From contig DYFA01000012.1 in assembly GCA_020725425.1 (NCBI GenBank), positions 1-44,818 on the forward strand: a stretch of 44,818 nt of DNA, given 5' to 3'. Origin of the DNA: Aneurinibacillus sp. GTDB taxonomy: Bacteria; Bacillota; UBA5301; DYFA01. Within the stretch, counting starts at the first letter, position 1. Every line of letters begins with the position of its first letter. The notes beneath the pieces were generated by a model. It was not told the origin of the DNA, did no database searches, and saw nothing but the letters and a program-made list of their open reading frames with translations. Both the position numbers and the translations under genes were made by a program. This document shows positions 1,399 through 41,015 of the stretch, piece by piece.

Positions 1399-1492
1399 AA
1401 TACCAGATGGCGAAGGATAGAAAAGGATCGCCAAGGATGTATGGGTACTGTCTAAGATGCCTTCCGTCAGAACGCGCCTGGGGGTAGTAAGG

Positions 1493-3463
1493 ATGAGCTT
1501 GCGTAAGAAGACCCTGCTGATTCTCGCCGTGGCGCTGGTTGCTTTGGTCGCCATTCTGAGTGCGATCTTCACCTACCTCCTGCCTGGACCGGCCGGTGTG
1601 GAAGCACCTCGACGGCTGTACCAGCAAGGATTTATGCGAACAAATGTCGCGTTTGCGATTCTGGTGCTTGCGGGTCTCCTGTCTATAAACGCCGTCGCCT
1701 GTTTTCTGGAGAGGGACATCCTCTCGAGAGTGGCCCGGCTCACTCAAGCCGTATATCAGGTTGTCGCGACCGGAGACTTGTCCGTGCGGGTTCCCACGGA
1801 CGGAAAGGATGAGTTCTCTCGCCTGAGAGAAGCGATTAACGCCATGCTCACGGCGCTGCAGCATTCCATACGCTTACGAGGGAATGAGGGTAACTGCAAC
1901 ACTCTGGTGAACGAGCTATGCATTGCCCAACAGCAGCTCCTTGACATTATAGAGTTCCTTCCGGACGCCACCTTCGTGGTCGGTCGGGACGGAAAGGTCA
2001 TCGCCTGGAATAAGGCGATGGAAGAGATGACGGGGGTTCGCAAGGAAGACATCATCAACAAGGGGGACTATGCCTACGGAGCGGCGCTTTACGGGACACC
2101 CCGGCCCTGTATCGTTGATCTCCTCGCATGTCCGCCGGAGTACTTGGCTGATCTAGGGTACAAGGACGTACATAAACGGGGTACCACCCTGTACACAGAG
2201 ATGTTCCTGCCGTCCCTGTACGGGGGGCGGGGGGCGTTCGTCGGGGTAGCCGCTTCTCCGCTCCTGGACGGCGAAGGGAACATCGTCGGAGGCATTGAGT
2301 CGTGGCGAGACCTGACGGAACGCAAGCAAGCAGAGCAACAACTGGAGTACTTGCGGTTCTATGATCCAATTACGGGTCTCCGTAATCGCTCCTGTTTCGA
2401 AGGGGAGTTGCAGCGCGCCATATCTGCCGGTGCCAGGATTGGGCTGATCCTCTGCGATGTGGATGGGCTCAGGCTGGTTAACCGTGCGGCAGGTCATCTT
2501 GCTGGAGACGCTCTGCTTCTGGCAACTGCCGGCATCTTGCGGGAAACCTTCGGCGCAACCGGTGTGCTGGCGCGGATTGGTGACGACGAGTTCGCCGTGC
2601 TCATGCGCGATGCCGATGAGGTCACGCTGAGAGAAGGTTGTCTCCAACTCAGACGCGCTGTGGACCGGTACAATGCGTGTGGAGCGGAGCCCCAGCTGAT
2701 CCTCTCCATCGGGTGCGCCATCAGGCATGATGGAGCGGGAGGCGCAGTTGACCTGGTGCAGCAGGCGACCGCTGCCATCTATCGTGAGAAGATGGCCAGC
2801 GACTACAGTCTGCTGGGCGCGGCGTTCCGGTGCTTTACTAAGGCTTTGAGTACCCTGGATGGCTTGCCTGAAGGCAGTGAAGAACAGTTGGAGACCGCGG
2901 TCAGGCAGTTGCTTGAGGAAGACTTGTGGGGCAAGAACGTACAGCACGCTACAAGTGAACGGGAGATCGCGCCCCGGGTATACGGGCGATGCTGCTCCTT
3001 GCTGACGCCTAAAGGGAGATTTCAGGCGCTTCCTGTTGAGGAGGTGGAGGCCCGCATCGTCGGCCGGCAGTTGACCGCGGTTGACGTCTGCGGGCCGGAC
3101 GGAATCATTCGCGCCAGGGAAATGGTGGGTCAAGCTGCAGGCGGCTTGCTGATTCCCCGCCAGACAGTCTGGCGCATGACGCTGGCCATATCGGAAGCCT
3201 TGATCCAAGGGCTAAGGCTGGTCGACACCGCTCGCCTGAGGCTGGTGGAAAACGGCGATACGTTGTTCGTCGCGCTGCATCTCCCCGGGTCGGTTTCGAG
3301 CCTTCTGCTCCTGAGCGGCGAAATGCTTCGGCATCTGGCCAGCGAGGTTATTTGGGACACGACCGGCGACACGCTGGTTCTCAGGTTCAATCTGCCCCCC
3401 GTGGCGATCAAGCGACAGAGCCTGGAAGCGACGGAACGCAGCTCAGGGGTGGTGGGTGAGTGA
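1493..3463 (+). CDS. membrane HAMP-PAS-GGDEF protein with degenerate active site and unassigned C-terminal region
   Basis: About 656 residues. Two N-terminal membrane helices (about residues 6-28 and 48-70) flank a short outside loop. A HAMP-like segment follows (RVPTDGKDEFSRLREAINAM), then a PAS domain (about 150-275, DATFVVGRDGKVIAWNKAMEEMTG) and a GGDEF domain (about 285-440). The metal Asp (C321-DVD) is kept, but the signature reads G363-D364-D-E-F, so the second glycine is Asp, and the usual Asn-Asp of the DxxGH segment is altered (LVNRAAGHLAGD). Catalysis is therefore doubtful; it may bind GTP or only signal. Residues 450-656 match nothing I recognise. The ATG at 1493 follows a GGGGG site; an in-frame ATG at 1457 is the alternative. 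Its stop overlaps the FapA start. Confidence 0.8.
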   Translation: MSLRKKTLLILAVALVALVAILSAIFTYLLPGPAGVEAPRRLYQQGFMRTNVAFAILVLAGLLSINAVACFLERDILSRVARLTQAVYQVVATGDLSVRVPTDGKDEFSRLREAINAMLTALQHSIRLRGNEGNCNTLVNELCIAQQQLLDIIEFLPDATFVVGRDGKVIAWNKAMEEMTGVRKEDIINKGDYAYGAALYGTPRPCIVDLLACPPEYLADLGYKDVHKRGTTLYTEMFLPSLYGGRGAFVGVAASPLLDGEGNIVGGIESWRDLTERKQAEQQLEYLRFYDPITGLRNRSCFEGELQRAISAGARIGLILCDVDGLRLVNRAAGHLAGDALLLATAGILRETFGATGVLARIGDDEFAVLMRDADEVTLREGCLQLRRAVDRYNACGAEPQLILSIGCAIRHDGAGGAVDLVQQATAAIYREKMASDYSLLGAAFRCFTKALSTLDGLPEGSEEQLETAVRQLLEEDLWGKNVQHATSEREIAPRVYGRCCSLLTPKGRFQALPVEEVEARIVGRQLTAVDVCGPDGIIRAREMVGQAAGGLLIPRQTVWRMTLAISEALIQGLRLVDTARLRLVENGDTLFVALHLPGSVSSLLLLSGEMLRHLASEVIWDTTGDTLVLRFNLPPVAIKRQSLEATERSSGVVGE

Positions 3464-5412
3464 GTTTCCGGAGTTGGCTCCAGGGGAAAAAAGGTGGAAC
3501 GGCTGGTCGCGACCGGAAGGAGCTGCCGTCGTCTCATTCTCCGCGCCACCTCGACTTCGAGGGAAGACTGCAAGAGCTCTTGGACACGGTTGCAAAGGCC
3601 CCCGAGTCATGCTCCACTACGGAGAGGCCTGCCGATGCCGCGGGCACGGTGGCTATCCGGAACGGAAAAGTCGTGATAACGGATCCGGCGGGGCGAGGCC
3701 AGTTTCCGACAATTGCCCCCGGGGCTGGTGTGGTGGTTTTCGTCAACGGGAAACCTATTCAGGGACCTACCATCGTCACCTCGCGCTTCAAAGTTGAGGT
3801 GTACGCGCCCCGGCGCGCGGCCGAATGCCGGATGAAGGTGCGTGTCTCCGAGTCCAAGCTGGAAGCCTATCTTACCATCGAACGCCGCAAAGGCCAAGAA
3901 TTCAAGCTGGATGACGCGGCCCCCTCCCCGCGGTTGACCGTAACCGCCACGGTGGTCCAAGAGACCGAACCCGAGGCGCCTACGGTCGAGGATGTGCTCC
4001 GACTGCTGGCTGAGGAGGGGATCACTTACGGTATCGACTCGGGAGCCGTCTTGAACGCCTTGGAACACGAAGGAACCGTGCTTGTCGCCCGCGGCGACCC
4101 TCCAGTTCCGGGAGAAGACGCTCGCATCGAGTACTATTTTCCGGACAGTGAGTCTGTTCCCCGCGTCTTCACTGGCGACGAGGATCGCGTTGACCTGCTG
4201 GCGCGGAGTGACTTGGTGTGCGTAGCTGAAAGGGAAGTATTGGCACGGAAGACACCGGCGCGGCCTGGAGCGCCAGGGATGACCGTTACAGGCGAAGCCA
4301 TACCGGCGCCTCCGGTAAACGATGTAGAGATTATAGTCGGACCGGGAGTCAAATTGCTGGAGGACGGGCTGGTCGCAGTGGCGACGCGGCAGGGGCGTCC
4401 GCTTCTTAAGAACAATCAGCTCTCCGTCTTGCCGGTGTACGTCGTGGAGGGCGACGCGGACGTAGCGACTGGTCATTTGACGTTCCAGGGGCACATCTTG
4501 ATCAAGGGCAGTGTCCGTTCCGGCATCAAAGTCCGGGCAACCGGCGATATCAAGATCCTGGGCGACGCCGAGCAAGCCAGCATAGTGGCCGGTGGAAGCA
4601 TAGACATCCGAGGCAATCTGATAAGTTGCGTGGTGCGGGCAGGCGGCCTGGATGCCATTGAAAGCACCATGGTGTTGCGGCTTGAAGAGCTGGCTCTGGA
4701 GCTTGAGCTACTCGTCAAGTCCATCTATGAAATCAAGTCACACCCGTCATTCCGGACTGTGGGGGCTAACCTGGAAAACGACGGCCCGTTGGTGAGGTTA
4801 CTGCTGGACAGAAAGTTCCACGCTATTCCGTCATTGTTGGCCGACATCCTTGAGCCACAGAATTCGCCGCCAGATGAGGAGATTCTTCATTTCGTGGAGG
4901 AGTGCGCCCAACGGTACACGGGACTAGGTCCGGTGAACATCCGGAGTGTGGTGGAGATCGCCGCGGACGTTGAGAGATTCAAGAGAATCATCTCGACCTG
5001 CAAGAGGAACATTCAGGCGCCAGGGCACCTTTATGCCAGTTATGTGCAGAACTGCACGCTTGAAGCAAGCGGCCGCATCCGCATCGTGGGGGACGGCTGC
5101 TACGGTTCGGAGCTTCGCGCCGGGCAAGACGTGCGCGTCGAAGGACGACGTGGAGTGTTCCGTGGTGGTTCCATCACCAGCGGCGGCAATGTCCACGTCA
5201 AGTCATTAGGTTCGCCGGCTGGATCGCCGACAAAAGTCAGCTTCCTGCCGGGGAAGCGGGTTACCGCTGAAGAGGTCGAACCGAATGTCATCCTGAAGGC
5301 AGGCCGGCAGACAGCGACCGTCGAGAGTACAGGACGGCTGATGGAAGCTTACCTTGACAAGGATGGACTGCTGCAAGTGATCAAACTTCGTCCTGATCGT
5401 GTCAAGGGTTAG
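3460..5412 (+). CDS. FapA/DUF342 family protein
   Basis: A 650-residue cytoplasmic protein of the DUF342 (FapA, flagellar assembly protein A) family. The N-terminal part has the family layout of a low-complexity lead followed by domain pieces around GTVAIRNGKVVI and GVVVFVNGKPI. The core around residues 180-300 contains EEGITYGIDSGAVLNAL and the ARKTPARPGAPGMTVTGEAI segment typical of the family. The C-terminal third is a repeated beta-helix-like stretch (GHILIKGSVRSGIKVRATGDI onward) with a helical insertion. The GTG start at 3460 overlaps the preceding stop (GTGA). FapA proteins are linked to polar localisation and c-di-GMP signalling in other bacteria. No flagellar genes are adjacent, so the role here is inferred only from the GGDEF and HD-GYP neighbours. 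Confidence 0.82.
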   Translation: MSFRSWLQGKKGGTAGRDRKELPSSHSPRHLDFEGRLQELLDTVAKAPESCSTTERPADAAGTVAIRNGKVVITDPAGRGQFPTIAPGAGVVVFVNGKPIQGPTIVTSRFKVEVYAPRRAAECRMKVRVSESKLEAYLTIERRKGQEFKLDDAAPSPRLTVTATVVQETEPEAPTVEDVLRLLAEEGITYGIDSGAVLNALEHEGTVLVARGDPPVPGEDARIEYYFPDSESVPRVFTGDEDRVDLLARSDLVCVAEREVLARKTPARPGAPGMTVTGEAIPAPPVNDVEIIVGPGVKLLEDGLVAVATRQGRPLLKNNQLSVLPVYVVEGDADVATGHLTFQGHILIKGSVRSGIKVRATGDIKILGDAEQASIVAGGSIDIRGNLISCVVRAGGLDAIESTMVLRLEELALELELLVKSIYEIKSHPSFRTVGANLENDGPLVRLLLDRKFHAIPSLLADILEPQNSPPDEEILHFVEECAQRYTGLGPVNIRSVVEIAADVERFKRIISTCKRNIQAPGHLYASYVQNCTLEASGRIRIVGDGCYGSELRAGQDVRVEGRRGVFRGGSITSGGNVHVKSLGSPAGSPTKVSFLPGKRVTAEEVEPNVILKAGRQTATVESTGRLMEAYLDKDGLLQVIKLRPDRVKG

Positions 5413-5413
5413 A

Positions 5414-6460
5414 CTACGCTTCACCGACGAGGTGGATCGCCGACTGCCGGCTCAGGTCGATGAGGCGCTTTCCAACGGCGACAATCGGCCGCTGGGGGTC
5501 GCGCTCATGCACAAAAACGACCTGTCCCACCAAGCCGTTGCTGAGTCGCACCGTTTGTCCGTGAACTCGTTGGACGACATGTTCCACAAAGGTTTGGGTG
5601 ACTCGCGGATCGAGCACGGAGAAGCTGCTTTCCTGAAGCTGCGCCAAGACCGCGTACCCGGGCTGTCGGGGCTGGTAGACTCTATCAGAGGTCATTGCGT
5701 CATAGACGTCGGCCACTGCCACTATCCGGGAAGTCAACAGAGTATCCTGGGCGCGAAGGCGTTGTGGGTACCCACTTCCGTCCATCCGTTCATGATGTTC
5801 GAGCGCTGCTCGGGATGGTATGGAGTCAGAGCCGAAATCAGGAGAAAGAAGACTGTGCCCGGCCAGGCAATGAGTCCTCACCACCGCCAACTCTTCGGTT
5901 GTCAGTCTACCCGGCTTGTTCAGGATTTCGAGTGGCACCAGAGCTTTGCCCAAGTCATGCAAAACTCCGGCCGTGGCCACCTGCAGATGTTCGCTAGGAG
6001 GCATCTTGAGCCACTGGGCAAGAAGTGTGGCCAGGACCCCTACTTTGACCGAATGCTGGAACGTGTAATCGTCCCAGTAGTTGAGCAGGTGGAGGTAGCT
6101 CAACACGTCAGGTTCGGAGGCGATCTTCATGACCAGCTGGGAGCATGACCGGCCTAGTTCCATGAGGGGTACGCAGTCCCCGCGCCGCAGCCCCTCCATG
6201 GCCTGCCGGATCTTGTCGACAGCCTGCCGATACGCCCGGTTGACGGTCGCGGGAATAGGACCTGCCTTGATAGTTCTTGGCTGTTCCTGGCTTTCTTCCT
6301 CCTCCACGTAGACCTCGGACAAACCCCACTTGCTGAGAAGCAGCCTGATGCGTTCATTCACCTTAGTCCCCTTGGGAAGAAGAAGTTCACCTGAAGGAGC
6401 GTAGATAGAGTGGGCAAGGACTTTGCCCGTCACAAGACCGGATAATGACATGCGGCGCAT
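5414..6460 (-). CDS. HD-GYP domain c-di-GMP phosphodiesterase
   Basis: A 348-residue soluble protein. The N-terminal segment (MSLSGLVTGKVLAHSIYAPSG) is the short domain often found ahead of HD-GYP domains. The catalytic HD-GYP domain (about residues 125-300) shows H168-D169-LGK, HCLAGHSLL, HHERMDGSGYP (222-232) and ADVYDAMTSDR, so metal ligands and the GYP motif are intact. This predicts hydrolysis of c-di-GMP to pGpG or GMP. It is convergent with FapA, the two stops being one base apart. The start is well supported: AAGGAGG precedes the ATG at 6460. It probably opposes cyclic-dinucleotide signalling from the neighbouring GGDEF protein or from elsewhere. Confidence 0.92.
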   Translation of the reverse strand: MRRMSLSGLVTGKVLAHSIYAPSGELLLPKGTKVNERIRLLLSKWGLSEVYVEEEESQEQPRTIKAGPIPATVNRAYRQAVDKIRQAMEGLRRGDCVPLMELGRSCSQLVMKIASEPDVLSYLHLLNYWDDYTFQHSVKVGVLATLLAQWLKMPPSEHLQVATAGVLHDLGKALVPLEILNKPGRLTTEELAVVRTHCLAGHSLLSPDFGSDSIPSRAALEHHERMDGSGYPQRLRAQDTLLTSRIVAVADVYDAMTSDRVYQPRQPGYAVLAQLQESSFSVLDPRVTQTFVEHVVQRVHGQTVRLSNGLVGQVVFVHERDPQRPIVAVGKRLIDLSRQSAIHLVGEA

Positions 6461-7596: not shown

Positions 7597-9468
7597 GTGG
7601 TTGACGCGACCCCGCGACTCAAAGGCAGTGGTATCGGTCACCCGCTGCGCCGGCACCAGAAGAAGCGGGGAGGTTGGATCCTCGTCGGGCTGGCCGTCCT
7701 CGCGGCCGCACTGACCTTCGGACTCGAACGGGCCGGCCTTTTGGAACGGGCCGAGGGCTGGTCCTACGACCGGCGCCTGCGGCTGCTGGCACCGGCGCGC
7801 GGGAGCGAGCCGGAGAAGAGCCCGGTGGCGGTCGTCGCTGTCGACGAGGAGAGCCTCCGCCGCTACGGCCAGTGGCCGTTGCCCCGCCACCTCTATGGAC
7901 AATTGCTGGAAATCCTGAGAAAGGCCGGCGTCCGTGCGGTGGGGTTCGACCTGCTCCTGGCGGAGCCGGACCGCCATGGCCCGGAGAGCGACGACGCTCT
8001 GGCCCGGGCCATCGGCGACGGCCCGCCGGTGGTCCTGGGGTTGGCGGGGGCGGCCAAGGTGCGGCGCGCCGGGGAGCCGGTCCTGACTCTGCTTCCGCCC
8101 TTCTCCGAGCCCTTGCCGCGCTTCGCCGAGAGCGGAGCATCGGTGGGCCACCTCCTGGCGGTGCCGGACGTCGACGGCGTGGTGCGACGGCTCCCGCTTG
8201 AGGTCGAAGTCGCCGGCCGCGGGAGGGTGCCGGCCTTCTGCCTGGCGCTGGCGCGGCTGGCCGGGGGGAGCGCCGCGGTGCCCTCCGTGATCGCTGGAGC
8301 CCGGGCTGAACTGCTGCTTGACTTCCGCAAGGGCGGGATTCCCGTCTACTCCCTGGCTGAAGTGCTCGAAGGCTCTGTGAGCCCGGCTGCCCTGAGAGGC
8401 CGGGCGGTCGTGGTGGGGGTGACGGCCTCGGGTCTGCCTGACCGCTACCACACCCCGTTGACTCCCGCCGGCGACCCGGTCCCCGGCGTCGAGCTCCAGG
8501 CCCTCGCCGTCGCCACGCTGCTCTCCGGAGGCGTACAGGCGCTGCCGCTGTCCTGGCTGTCCGGGAGCACCCTCCTCGCGGCGCTGCTGGGGGTTTTGGC
8601 CGGGCGGACCGGTTGGGGAGCGGTTCCCCTGGGACTGGCCGGCCTTCTTCTCCTGGCTGGGTCGGGCGTAGTGGCCCTGGCGGCGGGATACTGGCTTCCG
8701 GTGGCCGCGCCGGCCACGGGTCTCTTCGGCGCGCTCCTAGCCTCGCTGGGCTGGGGGCTGAGTGTCGAACGCCGGGAGCAGGCGCGGCTCGCCGCGCTCT
8801 TCGGACGCTACCTGTCGCCGGAGGTCTGCCGCGAGCTCCTCCGGCGCCCTGACCGGCCCTCGCTGGCGGGCGAGCGGGTGCATTTGACCGTCCTGTTCGC
8901 CGACCTCCGGGGGTTCACCGCCTTCAGCGCCGGCTGTGCGCCGGAGGAGGCGGTGGACACCCTCAATCGGTACCTTGGGATCATGGTCGAGGCGGTGCAG
9001 CGCCAGCGGGGGACGGTCGACAAGTTCCTGGGCGACGGGATCATGGCCTTCTTCGGGGCGCCGCTGCCCAGCGCGAATCCGGGCCGGGCGGCCCTCGCCG
9101 CGGCCCGCGAGATGATGACCCGGACGGCCGCCCTGGGGCGGGAGCTCGCTGCGGCCGGCCGACCGGCGCTGCCGCTCGGGGTCGGGTTGGCCTCCGGAGA
9201 GGCGCTCGTCGGGAGCATAGGCACGGATACCCGCTCGGACTACACCGCCATCGGCAATCCGGTGAACCTGGCCAGCCGGCTGGAGGACCTCGCCCGGCCG
9301 GGGGAAATCCTGGTGGATCAGGAGACCTGGACCGCGGCCGGCGAGGAGGTGCCCGCCGGCTCCAGGGTCGAGGAGATGGAAGTCGAAGGGTGGCCTGTTC
9401 CCGTCACCGTCGTCCGCCTGTCTTGTGACGGCCATCACTGCGCCGCCCAGCCGTGGCAGCTAGAGTGA
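7597..9468 (+). CDS. CHASE2-domain receptor adenylate cyclase (class III)
   Basis: A 623-residue membrane sensor that should make cAMP. One N-terminal helix (GGWILVGLAVLAAALTFGL) is followed by an extracytoplasmic CHASE2 domain (about 45-300, VAVVAVDEESLRRYGQWPLPRHLYG, GFDLLLAEPDR), then three helices (about 315-395). A cytoplasmic class III cyclase domain (about 425-600) ends the protein. Metal Asp residues are D436 (FADLRGFT) and D480 (KFLGDGIMAFFG). K476 and D548 fit adenine selection, and N557 and R561 (NPVNLASR) fit transition-state stabilisation, so all key residues are present. The GTG at 7597 follows GGGGGAGG. The FecR, CRP and Q/N-rich genes follow directly, suggesting cAMP acts on the adjacent CRP. 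The CHASE2 ligand is unknown. Confidence 0.93.
   Translation: MVDATPRLKGSGIGHPLRRHQKKRGGWILVGLAVLAAALTFGLERAGLLERAEGWSYDRRLRLLAPARGSEPEKSPVAVVAVDEESLRRYGQWPLPRHLYGQLLEILRKAGVRAVGFDLLLAEPDRHGPESDDALARAIGDGPPVVLGLAGAAKVRRAGEPVLTLLPPFSEPLPRFAESGASVGHLLAVPDVDGVVRRLPLEVEVAGRGRVPAFCLALARLAGGSAAVPSVIAGARAELLLDFRKGGIPVYSLAEVLEGSVSPAALRGRAVVVGVTASGLPDRYHTPLTPAGDPVPGVELQALAVATLLSGGVQALPLSWLSGSTLLAALLGVLAGRTGWGAVPLGLAGLLLLAGSGVVALAAGYWLPVAAPATGLFGALLASLGWGLSVERREQARLAALFGRYLSPEVCRELLRRPDRPSLAGERVHLTVLFADLRGFTAFSAGCAPEEAVDTLNRYLGIMVEAVQRQRGTVDKFLGDGIMAFFGAPLPSANPGRAALAAAREMMTRTAALGRELAAAGRPALPLGVGLASGEALVGSIGTDTRSDYTAIGNPVNLASRLEDLARPGEILVDQETWTAAGEEVPAGSRVEEMEVEGWPVPVTVVRLSCDGHHCAAQPWQLE
9424..9466 (+). 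promoter_or_regulatory. CRP operator and class II-type promoter for fecR-crp (inside the 3' end of the cyclase gene)
   Basis: TGTGACGGCCATCACT (9424-9439) matches the E. coli CRP consensus TGTGA-N6-TCACA at nine of ten positions. A -10 box TAGAGT lies at 9461-9466. The operator centre (9431.5) is 29.5 bp before the -10, which puts it at -41.5 for a start near 9473, the class II activator position. No good -35 exists. Caveat: the resulting leader before the fecR GTG is only about 13 bases, though it includes a run of G that can serve as the ribosome site. Confidence 0.65.
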
Positions 9469-9485
9469 GAGTGGGGGGATAGACC

Positions 9486-10388
9486 GTGAAGACGACCCGC
9501 CCGACCAAGGTTCCACCGCTCCGCCCAGCCGTCGGCCTTGCGCTTTTGGCCGGATTCCTCCTGGGGTCGGTCTGGTTGGCCGCCGCGGCGGAGTCCGGAA
9601 AGACCAACCCGGCCGGCGAGTCCCTGGCCGCGCTCCCCCCGGGCGTGGCAGCAGTGGTCAGGGCGGTGTCGGGCGACGCCCGCTGGTCCACCCAGACGGA
9701 GGCGGTGGAGTGGCAAGCGTTACGGCCGCAACTGCTCCTTCCCGCCGGGGCGCTCATCCGGACCGGGCCAGGGGCCTCGGTGGACCTCGAACTCGGTCCG
9801 GACCGGCGGGTGAGGCTGACCGGAGGGTCGGTGGTGGTGGTGGCGCCTCCCGCCCTCCAGGCGGGGGACAGCCACAGCCTCTTCCTCTATCTGGGGCGGG
9901 TATGGGTCAACCTCCGGCGGGAGCTGCTCCCCGGCGAGCGGTTCACCGTAGAGACGCCGGCCGCGGTCGTCGGGGTGCGGGGGACGCTCTTCACGGTGCT
10001 GGTCACCGAAGACAAGCGCACCGTGGCCGCGGTACACCGGGGGAAGGTCGAGGTCACGGGCGCCGGGGTGACCGTGACCGTGGGTGCGGGGAACCAGGTC
10101 GTCGTGGCGTTCGAGGGGCGTCCGGAAGGGCCGGGGCCCTTGTCGAGCGGTGAGCGGGAGGCCGCCCAGCGGGAACGGGCCTGGTTCGAGGCCCAGGGCG
10201 AGAAGGTGCAGGACGAGAGCGACCAGCCCTGCGGCCAGAAGAAAACCGGCGACGGCGGTTCCCTTGACGGGAAGGGCAGCGGAGGATCCCCGCCGTCGAG
10301 CGGCGCGGGACGGGAAGGGGTGTCCGATGGGTACGGAGACGGGAGCGGGAGCCAATTCCAGCCCGGTCCGGCCGGCGGAACGCGTTGA
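9486..10388 (+). CDS. secreted FecR-domain protein
   Basis: A 300-residue exported protein. A signal peptide is clear (MKTTRPTK... then LALLAGFLLGSVWLAAAA, cleavage near AAA-ES, residues 30-36). The FecR domain spans about 55-205: AVSGDARWST, ALIRTGPGASVDLELGPDRRVRL, then VETPAAVVGVRGTLFTVLV with the conserved GVRGT. The last 75 residues are hydrophilic and rich in Gly, Ser and charged residues. There is no transmembrane anti-sigma region, so it is probably a cell-surface or periplasm-like FecR variant and not a classical sigma regulator. It lies 17 bases after the CHASE2 cyclase and overlaps crp by 62 bases. The GTG at 9486 is chosen for the signal peptide and the GGGGGG site. Confidence 0.85.
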   Translation: MKTTRPTKVPPLRPAVGLALLAGFLLGSVWLAAAAESGKTNPAGESLAALPPGVAAVVRAVSGDARWSTQTEAVEWQALRPQLLLPAGALIRTGPGASVDLELGPDRRVRLTGGSVVVVAPPALQAGDSHSLFLYLGRVWVNLRRELLPGERFTVETPAAVVGVRGTLFTVLVTEDKRTVAAVHRGKVEVTGAGVTVTVGAGNQVVVAFEGRPEGPGPLSSGEREAAQRERAWFEAQGEKVQDESDQPCGQKKTGDGGSLDGKGSGGSPPSSGAGREGVSDGYGDGSGSQFQPGPAGGTR

Positions 10389-11055
10389 ACGGCTGCGGGA
10401 AGTCTCGCTCTTCCGTGAGCTGAACCCGACGGAGCTGGGTGACCTGGCGCTGGCCGCGACCGAACGCCTCTATCCCCGGGACGCTACCCTCTTCGAGGCC
10501 GGTGACCCGGCGGAGGCGGTTCACGTGATCCTGACCGGCGCGGTCAAAGTCTTTCAGCGCAGCGCCGACGGGCGGGAGAAGACCCTCGCCATTCTGGGAC
10601 CCGGCGATTGCCTGGGCGAGGTCGCCCTGTTGGACGGAGGGGACCGGTCGGCGAGCGCCCAGACGATGGCGGAGACCCGCCTCCTGAGCCTTCCCCGGGC
10701 GGCTTTCCTCCGGGCGCTGAAGCGTCAGCCGGTGATGGCCGAGAAGCTCCTGGCGCTGCTTGCCAAGCGGCTGCGGGTCGCCAACTACCAGGTGGAGCAG
10801 TTGGCGTTCTGCGACGCCCGGGAACGGGTGGCTGCCACTCTCCTGGCGCTGGCGGAGGTCCACGGAACCGGCCCGGACGGCGCGAAGCGGATCGACCTCC
10901 GCCTCACCCATCAAGAACTGGCCAATCTGGCCGGAACCACCAGGGAGACCAGCAGCCGCATCCTGTCCGAACTTGCCGGGCTCGGCCTGATCGAGGTCGA
11001 CCATCGCCACCTGGTCGTGCGCAATCCCCAGGGTCTGCGCCGGCTTCTCCCCTGA
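10327..11055 (+). CDS. CRP/FNR-family transcription regulator, cAMP-binding type
   Basis: A 242-residue regulator. The cyclic-nucleotide pocket reads G97-E98-VALLDGGD-R107-S108-A, the pattern that binds cAMP in E. coli CRP; no FNR-type cysteine cluster is present. The helix-turn-helix (about 190-225) contains TTRETSSRILSEL, with R206, E207 and R211 at the three base-contacting positions of E. coli CRP (RETxxR). It should therefore recognise TGTGA half-sites, and two such operators flank this gene. The ATG at 10327 has GGAAGGGGTGTCCG before it and sits inside the end of fecR (62-base out-of-frame overlap). The in-frame extension upstream is a shadow of fecR. The upstream operator suggests autoregulation. 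Confidence 0.93.
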   Translation: MGTETGAGANSSPVRPAERVERLREVSLFRELNPTELGDLALAATERLYPRDATLFEAGDPAEAVHVILTGAVKVFQRSADGREKTLAILGPGDCLGEVALLDGGDRSASAQTMAETRLLSLPRAAFLRALKRQPVMAEKLLALLAKRLRVANYQVEQLAFCDARERVAATLLALAEVHGTGPDGAKRIDLRLTHQELANLAGTTRETSSRILSELAGLGLIEVDHRHLVVRNPQGLRRLLP

Positions 11056-11106
11056 TCCTCTGCACTCAACCCTTCCTTCCCCCCCTTCTTCAGTTCCGCC
11101 GTGGAG

Positions 11107-11149
11107 TGTGACTCTGGTCACAGCCCCGCTTCAGGCGACAGGTTAGACT
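11107..11149 (+). promoter_or_regulatory. perfect CRP operator and class II-type promoter for the Q/N-rich secreted gene
   Basis: TGTGACTCTGGTCACA (11107-11122) is an exact TGTGA-N6-TCACA palindrome in the gap after crp. A -10 box TAGACT is at 11144-11149, exactly 29.5 bp from the operator centre (11114.5), giving -41.5 for a start near 11156. There is no -35 hexamer, as expected for an activator-dependent promoter. The leader would be about 38 bases with GGAGG before the ATG at 11194. Confidence 0.78.
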
Positions 11150-11193
11150 TGAAGTGCGGGGTGAAGTCTCGCACAAACGAGGAGGGTTTGACC

Positions 11194-11739
11194 ATGAACG
11201 CCAAGCGAGCGGAAATAAGGGGTCTGACCGGTCTTCTGGCCCTTGCCCTGGTCCTGGGGGCAGCCTGGCCGGCGGCGCTGGCGGCTGATCCCGACCCAGT
11301 GGCGGAGTTGCAGGTCTACCTGGGGAGTCTGAACACCGAGCCGGCCAGGGTCGGCGCCGCCGTGCAGGCGGTCAGGGAGGCGCTGGCAGCCGGGGCTGAC
11401 CCGGTGGCGGTCCAGGAGATGATCCGGACCATGGCCCGGGAAAAGGCCTCAGACGAGGCGTGCCTGCACCTCTGCGAGCGAATCAGGGCGATGACCCAGC
11501 GCCGGCTGAACCTCGGGGAGATCCTGCGCGAACTCCAACTGGCTTTGCGGAAAGGGCAGAGCCTCGAACAGGCCATGGAGACGGCTGAGCAGTCCATCCA
11601 GGCCCAGCACCAGAACCAGAATCAGAACCAGAATCAGAATCAAGGGCCGCCTGGCCAGCAGGTGCAGGGCGGCGAGCAGGAGACGGAGCGCGAACAGGAA
11701 GGCGCAGGCGGCCCGGGAGGCAAAGGGCCCGGCAAGTGA
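11194..11739 (+). CDS. exported protein with Q/N-rich tail, unknown function
   Basis: A 181-residue protein I do not recognise. It has a signal peptide (MNAKRAEIRGLTGLLALALVLGAAWPAALA, cleavage near ALA-AD). Residues 33-132 are helical and charged with two cysteines three apart (ACLHLC). Five Gln-Asn dipeptides (about 139-149) follow, then a Gly/Gln/Glu-rich disordered tail ending GGKGPGK. No membrane anchor or lipobox is visible. The start is secure: GGAGGGTTTGACC before ATG. A perfect CRP operator lies upstream and an 11-bp stem-loop downstream, so it is a monocistronic unit and a probable target of the adjacent cAMP-CRP system. Function unknown; a secreted adaptor or matrix-like protein is only a guess. 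Confidence 0.8.
   Translation: MNAKRAEIRGLTGLLALALVLGAAWPAALAADPDPVAELQVYLGSLNTEPARVGAAVQAVREALAAGADPVAVQEMIRTMAREKASDEACLHLCERIRAMTQRRLNLGEILRELQLALRKGQSLEQAMETAEQSIQAQHQNQNQNQNQNQGPPGQQVQGGEQETEREQEGAGGPGGKGPGK
11611..11640 (+). repeat. hexanucleotide tandem repeat, five units of CAGAA(C/T)
   Basis: Five consecutive six-base units encode (Gln-Asn)5 inside the exported protein gene. Repeats of this kind can change in number by slippage, which would lengthen or shorten the tail in frame. Confidence 0.9.
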
Positions 11740-28452: not shown

Positions 28453-31400
28453 TTGAGCGGGCGTGGAGAGCAACGGTGGCTCTGGCCGGAGACGGTCGAG
28501 GAGCAGGTCGGCGCGCTGGTGAAGGGCGGAATCCACCCCGTCCTCGCCCGGATTCTCGTGAGCCGGGGCTTTACCGACCTGGCAGCGGCGCAGGCCTTCC
28601 TCGAACCCGGGCGATGTTTTGAGGACCCCTGGGCGCTCTCCGGAATGGCGGCGGCGGTGCGGCGGGTCGAGGCGGCGCTGGCGGCCGGCGAGCGGATCCG
28701 GGTCTACGGCGACTACGACGTGGACGGGCTGGCCAGCACCGCCCTCCTCGCGGAGTACCTGGCCGGCCGGGGCGGGCGGGTGGACTTCCGGCTCCCCAGC
28801 CGGTTCGAGGAAGGGTACGGCCTCTCCCGCCAAGCGGTAGAGGAGGCTGCGGCGGACGGAATCCGGCTCTTGATCACGGTGGACTGCGGCGTCACCGCGG
28901 TCGCCGAGGTCGCCCGCGCCGCTGAACTCGGACTCGACGTGATCATTACCGACCACCACGAGCCGCCCGCGGTCTTGCCGCGGGCGGTCGCCGTGCTCAA
29001 CCCGAAGCAACCGGGCTGCCCCTACCCCTTCAAGGAGCTGGCCGGGGTGGGGGTCGCCTTCAAGCTGGTCCAGGCGCTGGCCGGAGTGGGCTGCAACGAG
29101 GCCCGGGAGGCGCTGGCGAACCACCTGGACCTGGTGGCCCTGGGGACGGTGGCGGACGTCGTCCCTCTCGTGGGGGAGAATCGCCTGTACGCCCGCTGGG
29201 GGCTGGATCGGCTGCGGCAGGCGCCCCGGCCGGGCCTGGCAGCGCTTCTGCAGGTGGGGGGGCTTGACCGGAAGAGCGATTCGGCGGTCATCTCCTTCGG
29301 CCTGGCGCCGCGGCTGAACGCCGCCGGGCGGCTCGGCGACCCCACCATCGGAGTGGAGCTGCTTTTGGAAAGGGATCCGGCGCGGGCGGAGAGTCTGGCC
29401 GGCCAACTGGAGGCCGCCAACCGAGCGCGGCAGGCGCTGGAGGAACAGATCCTGGTAGAGGTCCTGGCTTCCCTGGCGGAGCAGGGTGACCCGACCGGGG
29501 CCCCGGTGCTGGTGGCGGCAGGGGAGGGGTGGCATCCCGGGGTCATCGGAATCGTCGCCCAGCGGGTGGTGGAGCTGTTCCACCGGCCGGCGGTCGTGAT
29601 CAGCCTGGAAGGCGGCGTGGGACACGGCTCCGCCCGAAGCATCGCCGCTTTTCACCTGTATGAGGCGCTGTCCGACTGCGCCGACCTGTTCTTGAAGTTC
29701 GGCGGCCATGCCATGGCGGCCGGGTTGACCCTGCCGGCGGAGAACGTGCCGCTGCTGCGGGTGCGCCTCGCGCAGGCGGCGGAAGCGCGGCTCACCCCGG
29801 AGGATCTCCAGCCGACCCTGCGCATCGATGCCTGCGTCGGCGAGGCTGACCTCACTCCCGCCCTGGTGGAGGAGGTGCTAAGGCTGGCGCCCTTCGGCGC
29901 CGGCAACCCCTCGCCAGTGCTGGCCCTCCGCGGGGTGGAGATCGCCGAGGAACGGCTGGTCGGGGAGGGCCGCCATCTGAAGCTGGCAGTCCGGCCGGCG
30001 GGGGGAACGGAGGTGTTCGACTGTATCGGCTGGCGGAAGGCCGCCTGCCAGGAGCGGTTGCGCTGTCACTTCGGCCCGGTGGACCTGGCCTTTTCCCCTG
30101 CCTTGGACGAGTGGCGGGGCGCCCGCCGGCTCCGGCTGGTCCTGCAGGACGTCAAGCCCTCGCCGGGTGAACCGACGCCGATCGATCAGCTTTTCGCCGC
30201 CGCCGAGGCCCCCGCTGATCCCTACGCTACTATCCTCGAGTCGGCCGGTTTCCATACCAAGGTAGTCGGCGTGAGCTTCGAGGGCCGCCAGGAGGTGCTG
30301 GCCGGCCTGCGCCCCGGTCAGCCGTTGCGTCTCGTCCGGGAGCCGGAGAACCCCCACGATCCGTCGGCGGTGCGGGTCGAGACAGAAGAGGGGGTGATTC
30401 TCGGCTATCTCCGGGCAGGGCTCGCCCGCCACCTGGGGCCGGCGATGGACCAGGGGGTCCGGTACACCGCCGCGGTCACTGCGGTGACAGGGGGAGAGGA
30501 CGGCCAACACCGGGGGGTCAACATCTTCCTCGACCGAGAGCCGGGGGAGGAGGAGCTGGCGGCCCGGGCGGAGGCCGGTACCCGTCGGGATAGCCTGGTC
30601 AGGGCCGGTGAGGAGGCTGTCTGGACTGCGATCCGTCAGGCCCTTCTCGAGGATTTCGCTTTCCGGGACAAGCAGTCCGAGGCGCTGGCCCGCCTGCAGG
30701 AGGGGCGCAACACCCTCGTCGTGATGGGGACGGGCCGCGGCAAATCCGCCATCTTCCAGGCGTTCGGGGCTTTCCAAGCTCTGTGTCAGGGCCGAATCAC
30801 GCTGATCCTGTACCCTCTGCGGGCGCTGGTCAACGACCAGCTCGAGGCAGTCCGGCGCCGTCTCTCCGCCCTGGGGCTCCGGGCCTACCAGGCCACCGGC
30901 TCGCTTTCGACCAGGGAGCGGGAGGAGCTTGCCATGGCACTGGCTCTGGGCGAGGCGGACTTCCTCCTGGCGACGCCGGAGTACGCCGAGCTCCATCTCG
31001 CCCGTCAACCGGAGGTCCTCGAGCGGCTGGGCTTCCTCGTGGTCGACGAGGCCCATCACCTGGCCCGGCCGAACAGCAACCGGGCGGCGTACCGGCGGCT
31101 GGGCCGGCTGAGGGAGGCTCTGGGCGGCCCGCTCACGCTGGCGGTGACAGCCACGGCGGACACGGCGACGGCCTCGCGCATTGTCGCTGAACTCTCGCTC
31201 TCCGCGGTGGTGGTGGACCGGACCGTCCGGACCAACCTCCGGATACGGGACGCCCGACAGACCTCCGACGCCGACAAGGCGCTGTATCTCGCGAAGCTTT
31301 TCCGGCGGGGCGAGAAGGCCGTGGCCTACGTGAACAGCCGGGACCAGGCGGTGGAGGTGGCCCGCCGGCTGCGCAAGGCCCACTTGGCCGAAAAGGACGC

Positions 31401-32064
31401 CATCGCCTTCTACCACGGCGGGCTGACGCCCTCCCAGCGGGCGATGCTGGAGGACCTCTTCCGGGAGGGCGCCGTGCGGCTGATGGTGGCGACCAGCGCC
31501 TTCGGCGAAGGGGTGGACGTTCCAGACATCCGCCACGTTGTCCACTACCACCTGCCGTTCAATGAGACCGACTTCAACCAGCAGTCGGGCCGGGCCGGGC
31601 GGGATGGGGAAGAGGCCTGGATCCACCTGCTCTACAACGACCGGGACGTGGAGCTGAACCGGCTCATCCTCAAGGCCAAGGCGCCCGATCGAGAGGCTCT
31701 CCGCCAGGTCTACCTGGCCCTCGAGCAGGTGGCGGCGGCCGGCGAGATCGACCTGGCCAACGCCGATCTTGCAGAGCTGGCGAACGTCACCCCCGACACG
31801 GTCTCCACCTCTCTCGGCATCCTTGTGGAACTGGGACTTCTGGACCGGGTCCGGGACGGGGCGGAGCGCCGTCTGTACCTGCGGGAGAAGCCTGAAAAGA
31901 AACTGGACTTAACCAATTCCATCCGATATAATGAAGGCATGCACGAGCGGGCGGCGTTTGAGGCCTTCCAGGTGGTGGCGAGAACGGCTCCCGCTCAAGA
32001 TTTGCTGGCCATGGTGAACCGGCCGATCGTGCCGGAGTGGCCGGACGAGGAGCGTCAGGCGTGA
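28453..32064 (+). CDS. recJ: RecJ single-strand exonuclease fused to a HIRAN domain and a RecQ-like helicase
   Basis: A 1203-residue fusion, about twice the usual RecJ length. Residues 1-570 are a complete RecJ: YGDYDVDG (D87, D89, D91), TVDCGVT (D144), TDHHE (D167, H168, H169), DHHA1 with GGHAMAAG (417-424) and the OB-fold region. Residues about 598-690 look like a HIRAN domain (FHTKVVGVSFEGRQEVL, ENPHDPSAVRV). Residues 710-1120 form a RecQ-type helicase: Walker A GTGRGKS (759-765), YPLRALVNDQLE, DEAH (865-868), TATAD and QQSGRAGRDG (1043-1052). A winged-helix-like end follows (1130-1203). No frameshift is visible across the joins. RecQ and RecJ jointly process stalled forks and ends, so the fusion joins partners. 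The TTG start follows GAGGGGAGCAGC. Confidence 0.93.
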   Translation: MSGRGEQRWLWPETVEEQVGALVKGGIHPVLARILVSRGFTDLAAAQAFLEPGRCFEDPWALSGMAAAVRRVEAALAAGERIRVYGDYDVDGLASTALLAEYLAGRGGRVDFRLPSRFEEGYGLSRQAVEEAAADGIRLLITVDCGVTAVAEVARAAELGLDVIITDHHEPPAVLPRAVAVLNPKQPGCPYPFKELAGVGVAFKLVQALAGVGCNEAREALANHLDLVALGTVADVVPLVGENRLYARWGLDRLRQAPRPGLAALLQVGGLDRKSDSAVISFGLAPRLNAAGRLGDPTIGVELLLERDPARAESLAGQLEAANRARQALEEQILVEVLASLAEQGDPTGAPVLVAAGEGWHPGVIGIVAQRVVELFHRPAVVISLEGGVGHGSARSIAAFHLYEALSDCADLFLKFGGHAMAAGLTLPAENVPLLRVRLAQAAEARLTPEDLQPTLRIDACVGEADLTPALVEEVLRLAPFGAGNPSPVLALRGVEIAEERLVGEGRHLKLAVRPAGGTEVFDCIGWRKAACQERLRCHFGPVDLAFSPALDEWRGARRLRLVLQDVKPSPGEPTPIDQLFAAAEAPADPYATILESAGFHTKVVGVSFEGRQEVLAGLRPGQPLRLVREPENPHDPSAVRVETEEGVILGYLRAGLARHLGPAMDQGVRYTAAVTAVTGGEDGQHRGVNIFLDREPGEEELAARAEAGTRRDSLVRAGEEAVWTAIRQALLEDFAFRDKQSEALARLQEGRNTLVVMGTGRGKSAIFQAFGAFQALCQGRITLILYPLRALVNDQLEAVRRRLSALGLRAYQATGSLSTREREELAMALALGEADFLLATPEYAELHLARQPEVLERLGFLVVDEAHHLARPNSNRAAYRRLGRLREALGGPLTLAVTATADTATASRIVAELSLSAVVVDRTVRTNLRIRDARQTSDADKALYLAKLFRRGEKAVAYVNSRDQAVEVARRLRKAHLAEKDAIAFYHGGLTPSQRAMLEDLFREGAVRLMVATSAFGEGVDVPDIRHVVHYHLPFNETDFNQQSGRAGRDGEEAWIHLLYNDRDVELNRLILKAKAPDREALRQVYLALEQVAAAGEIDLANADLAELANVTPDTVSTSLGILVELGLLDRVRDGAERRLYLREKPEKKLDLTNSIRYNEGMHERAAFEAFQVVARTAPAQDLLAMVNRPIVPEWPDEERQA
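31904..31932 (+). promoter_or_regulatory. possible internal promoter for apt-relA inside recJ
   Basis: TGGACT, 17-base spacer, TATAAT (31927-31932), about 130 bases before the apt start, in an A+T-rich patch that stands out in the recJ end. The -10 is consensus, the -35 is four of six. Confidence 0.5.
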
Positions 32065-40817: not shown

Positions 40818-41015
40818 CAAGGCAATACCCTACCGTGTGCGTGGTCAAGCTGACGTAAGTTGTGAACCAACACACATAACTTAGGGAGCCTGGCCTCTCC
40901 CAGTGGCGTGTGGCCGTGTACGGCACGGAAACCCAGGAACTGGGAGGAGGGCACCCACCTGCTGGGGGCAGGTTCATCCACCGTCAGCGGTTCAACGGCA
41001 CGGCGGGGTATACGT
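40818..41015 (+). ncRNA. ssrS: 6S RNA
   Basis: A roughly 195-base non-coding RNA that mimics an open promoter and binds sigma-A RNA polymerase. The ends pair (ATACCC 40825-40830 with GGGTAT 41006-41011, then CCGTG with CACGG). Inside this are GCTGACG with CGTCAGC, GTGAACC with GGTTCAT, an unpaired central region on both sides (about CACACATAACTTAGGG and GGGCACCCACCTG), then CTCCCAGT with ACTGGGAG and a terminal GCCG-tgta-CGGC hairpin. This long rod with a large central bubble is the 6S architecture. The position between aspS and tcdA is that of bsrA in B. subtilis. An open frame crosses it but has no coding features. Confidence 0.9.

Follow-up and report, generated by a model that had tools for sequence, protein, structure and literature searches.

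The window analysed here, the whole 44,818-nucleotide contig DYFA01000012.1 of an Aneurinibacillus sp. genome assembly (GCA_020725425.1; Bacillota), carries at positions 7597-11739 a block of four forward-strand genes which, by profile search and residue reading, encode a CHASE2 class III nucleotide cyclase, an exported FecR-domain protein, a cyclic AMP (cAMP) receptor protein (CRP) and a further exported protein. We read the block as a cyclic-nucleotide signalling module whose CRP would activate class II promoters at fecR-crp and at the exported-protein gene, and we give this reading a probability of roughly 0.78. The block's standing as a real module under predicted CRP control is well supported and has a precedent in Sinorhizobium meliloti. 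An earlier note on this DNA had proposed the same gene set; all four genes lie where it had placed them, with domains above the profile cut-offs and a signal peptide on the exported protein, and the catalytic, ligand-pocket and DNA-contact residues that it named were all correct.

The cyclase (7597-9468, 623 aa) has a CHASE2 domain at approximately 7705-8589 (E 1e-53, 183 bits against a cut-off of 26.3) and a catalytic domain at 8884-9390 (Guanylate_cyc, E 3.7e-18, 66.2 bits against a cut-off of 21.9). Its catalytic set is complete, with metal-binding Asp residues D436 and D480, the substrate pair Lys476/Thr550, and the transition-state residues N557 and R561, and it is the only PF00211 match in the 2.38 Mb, 72-contig host genome. 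The FecR-domain protein that follows (9486-10388, 300 aa; FecR domain at approximately 9753-10052, E 8.2e-12) belongs to a kind whose genes adjoin such cyclases in many phyla.

The crp gene (10327-11055, 242 aa) overlaps fecR by 62 bp, and its product matched cNMP_binding (PF00027), HTH_Crp_2 (PF13545) and Crp (PF00325), all over cut-off. The phosphate-ribose pocket of Escherichia coli CRP (G71, E72, R82, S83) corresponds to G97, E98, R107 and S108, and the DNA-contacting R180, E181 and R185 correspond to R206, E207 and R211 in the recognition helix. Against the NCBIfam equivalog PRK11753 the protein scored 108.2 bits, under the 266-bit cut-off; its sequence marks it as a CRP-type regulator and no ortholog of the enterobacterial CRP. 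The best solved-structure matches were the CRPs of Mycobacterium tuberculosis and related actinobacteria (PDB 3i54, 3r6s, 4byy; E ~1e-39 to 1e-37).

Two TGTGA-N6-TCAC(A/T) operators had been claimed for this block, and both were found. Operator 1 (TGTGACGGCCATCACT, 9424-9439, one mismatch) sits in the 3'-terminal part of the cyclase gene and precedes fecR-crp, and operator 2 (TGTGACTCTGGTCACA, 11107-11122, exact) lies between crp and the exported-protein gene. The predicted forward-strand -10 hexamers TAGAGT (9461-9466) and TAGACT (11144-11149) each stand 29.5 bp from the centre of the respective operator, and both promoters, as predicted from sequence, fit a geometry with the site at -41.5. 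Exact TGTGA-N6-TCACA sites number five in the host genome against none for the reversed control, whereas with up to one mismatch there are 15 against 15, which is background; operator 2 therefore stands out alone and operator 1 needs outside support, which it receives from its conservation in relatives and from a -10 at the correct spacing. The earlier note's statement that the operators occur only in this block holds within the window, bar a weak one-mismatch match at 40861, but not across the genome, where four further exact sites lie elsewhere. Those sites, together with the extra targets seen in relatives, also make its description of the circuit as self-contained too strong. None of these four sites has an intact -10 where class II spacing would put it, so the nearby hydrogenase or glnA genes remain guesses as targets; the combination of a palindrome with at most one mismatch and an intact TANNNT at the 29.5-bp spacing occurs in the host genome only at the two window sites.

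The search of relatives covered 41 genomes (the host and its relatives) and 399 genomes drawn from the phylum. A related CHASE2 cyclase was found in 48 of them, and the order cyclase-fecR-crp in 23 fetched loci including the window (22 other genomes), with cyclase-crp lacking fecR in two more. The G+C content of these loci spans 0.31 to 0.71, and the arrangement is thus either old or often moved. All 25 loci were scanned at equal places, allowing one mismatch and with shuffled controls. An operator was present in the gap between cyclase and fecR in 13 of the 25 (5 exact; shuffle mean 0.085) and in the stretch after crp in 9 (2 exact; shuffle mean 0.135), while upstream of the cyclase there was none in any of the 25, and the reversed pattern did not occur in the scan. 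Such a search for gene order and motif had been proposed by the earlier note, and it found the operators conserved. Beyond the scanned stretch, L032 has a further exact site before its exported-protein gene, and in L180, L194 and L195, where the exported gene is convergent with crp, that gene has its own site approximately 94, 73 and 69 bp upstream of the start. Among the CRPs of the linked loci, 24 of 25 have the R-E-R recognition residues; the exception, L189, reads R-A-K, and no operator was found in its scanned gaps. All 25 cyclases keep the two metal-binding Asp residues, the Thr and the Asn of the catalytic site. The control set, 100 CHASE2-cyclase loci not among the CRP-linked ones, yielded one site after the cyclase (L192), which precedes another exported protein and fecR. 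Genome-wide counts of exact sites were 55 in 15 genomes of the set, where the reversed control gave 6, and 33 in 15 others, where it gave 12, so that the two groups differ moderately at this level.

The spacing of the promoters bears on how the CRP would act. In 19 of 27 promoters a -10 hexamer with four or more of its six letters matching stood downstream of the site, at exactly 29.5 bp from its centre, against a maximum of 6 at any offset in 1000 permutations; 6 of the 27 (three convergent genes and three weak proximal sites) joined the set once their spacing was known, the count without them being 13 of 21, and the promoters come partly from close relatives and are not all independent. A -10 at this distance places the CRP site at -41.5, the class II geometry, and with it activation by CRP and a positive loop on CRP and FecR are well supported as predictions. 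The earlier note's proposal that CRP governs both fecR-crp and the exported-protein gene is thereby supported, by operators kept at both places and by class II spacing, and it withstood the refutation that the note had named, a lack of operator conservation in relatives that keep the genes. A chance origin of the operators was considered and rejected on account of the positional conservation, the sites of the convergent genes, the -10 spacing and the control loci. Tandem CRP sites 23 bp apart were also observed before the exported-protein gene of L031, L160 and L162, the proximal one being in the class II position, and a similar arrangement with a weak second site in L165, L166 and L184.

The exported protein of the window (11194-11739, 181 aa) consists of a signal peptide, a confident helical core (approximately residues 35-145) and a Q/N-rich, charged tail. 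It has no Pfam match, and a single-sequence structure prediction was helical, with a pLDDT (predicted local distance difference test score) near 90 over residues 35-145 and no significant structural match in the PDB or among viral structures. Comparison with its L032 counterpart by BLASTP was not significant, and an all-against-all phmmer search of the exported proteins gave several groups with weak links between them. Given these null homology searches, what the outputs have in common is their position, their signal peptide, the operator site and a hydrophilic stretch of low complexity, and not a detectable likeness in sequence.

In other members of the phylum, a DegS-type histidine kinase gene also appears to be under the linked CRP, the site after crp preceding a kinase gene in L173 and L188 (DegS-type by Pfam in L173). 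Kinase genes after crp were seen in L030, L032, L034, L173, L182 and L188, of DegS type where tested (L032, L173), with an accompanying NarL-type response regulator in several of these loci; Flp pilin or prepilin peptidase genes then follow in L030, L032 and L173. In L173 there is, besides, an exact site (1458-1473) upstream of an operon resembling that of an NADH-linked hydrogenase, itself directly before cyclase-fecR-crp. A DegS kinase was also considered as an output in the window's own genome and rejected, as the orthologue is on another contig, where the scan gave no site even with one mismatch allowed.

Taken as a circuit, the membrane cyclase, with CHASE2 facing outward, would make cAMP, judging by its residues, and this cAMP would likely load the CRP encoded two genes downstream. 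Loaded CRP would then bind TGTGA-N6-TCACA at -41.5 of the two class II promoters, to which the conserved sites and the -10 spacing point. Promoter 1 would drive fecR-crp, so that the receptor, but not the cyclase, would come under a positive loop, and promoter 2 would drive the exported helical protein with its hydrophilic tail, which probably acts as an output at the envelope or surface. Its recurrent adjacency makes the FecR protein a probable partner or modulator, in the envelope, of the CHASE2 side. The sequence itself shows the gene set and its order, the operators, their spacing and the residues, and from these we infer that cAMP is made and is the ligand, that the promoters are activated in vivo, that CHASE2 senses, and what the FecR and exported proteins do.

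Several observations weigh against this reading. Any given gap is without an operator in about half of the loci. The cyclases of L171, L180, L183, L194 and L195 are without the substrate Lys or the transition-state Arg, so cAMP production is not required at every locus. At the receptor, E. coli T127, which contacts adenine N6, corresponds to Ala152 and S128 to Asn153; elsewhere among the triad CRPs the first of these places is T, A or V and the second N or D. Finally, the residue of the host TrmD (L258) at the E. coli Tyr86 position is Ala, and in most other readable triad genomes it is Leu, with Phe in one; Tyr or Phe has been proposed at this position for Firmicutes with a real adenylate cyclase (PMC5217690). 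Considered as an independent sign of cAMP, TrmD thus gave no support. As for the five degenerate cyclases, we would like to note that the substrate Lys, where lost, is now Gly or Arg, that all five loci keep the linked crp, and that L180, L183, L194 and L195 keep operators as well.

Ala152-Asn153 and the TrmD residue, which is mismatched to a cAMP-containing cell, also count in favour of a reading in which the circuit is the same and the natural ligand of the CRP is not (or not only) cAMP, with cGMP, both nucleotides or neither in its place, and the S. meliloti regulator Clr does respond to both cAMP and cGMP (PMC10127613). Nevertheless, the window cyclase retains the ATP-type Lys/Thr pair, the CRP retains the G, E, R and S of the phosphate pocket, and the M. 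tuberculosis CRP, among its closest solved relatives, likewise has Asn at the second position, for which reasons we consider a different ligand rather unlikely. The source of the input allows somewhat more room for doubt. Known cyclases of class IIIb with the Lys/Thr pair respond to bicarbonate; all 25 cyclases of the linked loci have the T550 equivalent, and the adjacency of FecR recurs across many phyla, such that the cyclase could respond to intracellular bicarbonate, or to FecR at the membrane, and not to an outside signal. The CHASE2 domain is, however, intact, and in S. meliloti CyaD1 lacking CHASE2 gave constitutive cAMP, uL2 signals via the outer membrane to CHASE2 cyclases, and the FecR gene smc02177 is dispensable for signal perception. 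An input of this internal kind is thus unlikely, though deserving of some weight.

Autorepression is frequent in the CRP family, and neither strand nor effect is defined for the other genome sites, which would suit a CRP that represses at these sites in a negative feedback. We regard this as very improbable in view of the 19 of 27 promoters with a -10 at 29.5 bp, the mark of class II activation, and of a site that occupies the -35 position. It is harder still to credit that the sites serve some other member of the CRP/FNR family. The host genome does hold three HTH_Crp_2 matches over cut-off, that of the block and two others, but one of these (C55) is a CRP-family protein without E. coli R82, S83 and R180 that has P-E-R in place of R-E-R, and the other (C20) resembles a broken gene; moreover, the sites track linkage to crp, with only the single site among the 100 unlinked cyclase loci.

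Elsewhere in the window, genes for GGDEF-like, FapA and HD-domain proteins (1457-6460) adjoin the cAMP block and suggest a cyclic-di-GMP neighbourhood, and a 1203-aa open frame at 28453-32064 reads in its first half as RecJ and in its second as a RecQ-like helicase. YqfD is also encoded (1.8e-95), which fits a spore-former lineage of Bacillota.

The evidence on the making and use of 3',5'-cAMP in Firmicutes is conflicting (PMC5217690). In genomes of this group, the locus supplies a single named cyclase and receptor, a pair of promoters and an exported output, and operators are kept in many of approximately two dozen genomes, which makes the question directly testable. We hold it to be an even bet that genuine cAMP-CRP envelope signalling operates in large parts of the Bacillota, with one CHASE2 cyclase and a linked CRP, active on its own gene, turning on an exported helical protein that evolves fast and, in some lineages, also a DegS-type two-component system near genes of the Tad pilus; such a use of cAMP would have nothing to do with carbon catabolite control. 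The set of CHASE2 cyclase, FecR, CRP and exported protein that a plant symbiont was known to carry is not confined to Proteobacteria, and its presence beyond them points to a general envelope-signalling module.

The earlier note knew of no description of such a closed circuit, but one exists. On the S. meliloti chromosome clr (SMc02175, the CRP), cyaD1 (SMc02176, a CHASE2 cyclase), smc02177 (FecR) and smc02178 (exported) lie close together, and cAMP-Clr has been shown experimentally to activate smc02177 and smc02178 (PMC5498481). The cascade from CyaD1, CyaD2 and CyaK through Clr to SMc02177 and SMc02178 (PMC5498481, PMC10127613, PMC13001267) thus links the same four kinds of part as the window does; the likeness is one of gene kinds and linkage. 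In S. meliloti both the FecR gene and that of the exported protein are switched on by the regulator with cAMP, and the sequence predicts the like for the window. The two also differ in phylum, in the operator (Clr binds GTNNCNNNNGNNAC, the window operators being of the TGTGA-N6-TCACA type), in the number of cyclases (28 genes against one PF00211 match in the host genome) and at the T127/S128 places (Thr at both in Clr, Ala-Asn in the window CRP). New here are therefore the form found in Bacillota, the E. coli-type operator that it uses and its occurrence across many genomes, the circuit design being already known from S. meliloti.

A CHASE2 cyclase is likewise tied to FecR in a Campylobacterota cluster of cyclase, phosphodiesterase, FecR and TPR protein (PMC9239204), which differs from the window in its phosphodiesterase and TPR protein and for which a CRP is not described as a member in the available part of that source. 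In the Burkholderia BiofilmReg operon (PMC5192318) a CHASE2 sensor is linked to a FecR-domain protein, as in the window, but there CHASE2 belongs to a histidine kinase accompanied by a response regulator, and neither cyclase nor CRP is present. The M. tuberculosis CRP, close as it is in sequence, has LRRTN in its C-helix, the Thr of which corresponds to Ala152. With the cAMP-CRP system of E. coli the window shares the operator consensus, the R-E-R contacts and the class II spacing; it differs in having Ala-Asn for T127-S128, a class III CHASE2 cyclase unlike the E. coli type, and a crp gene linked to that of its cyclase.

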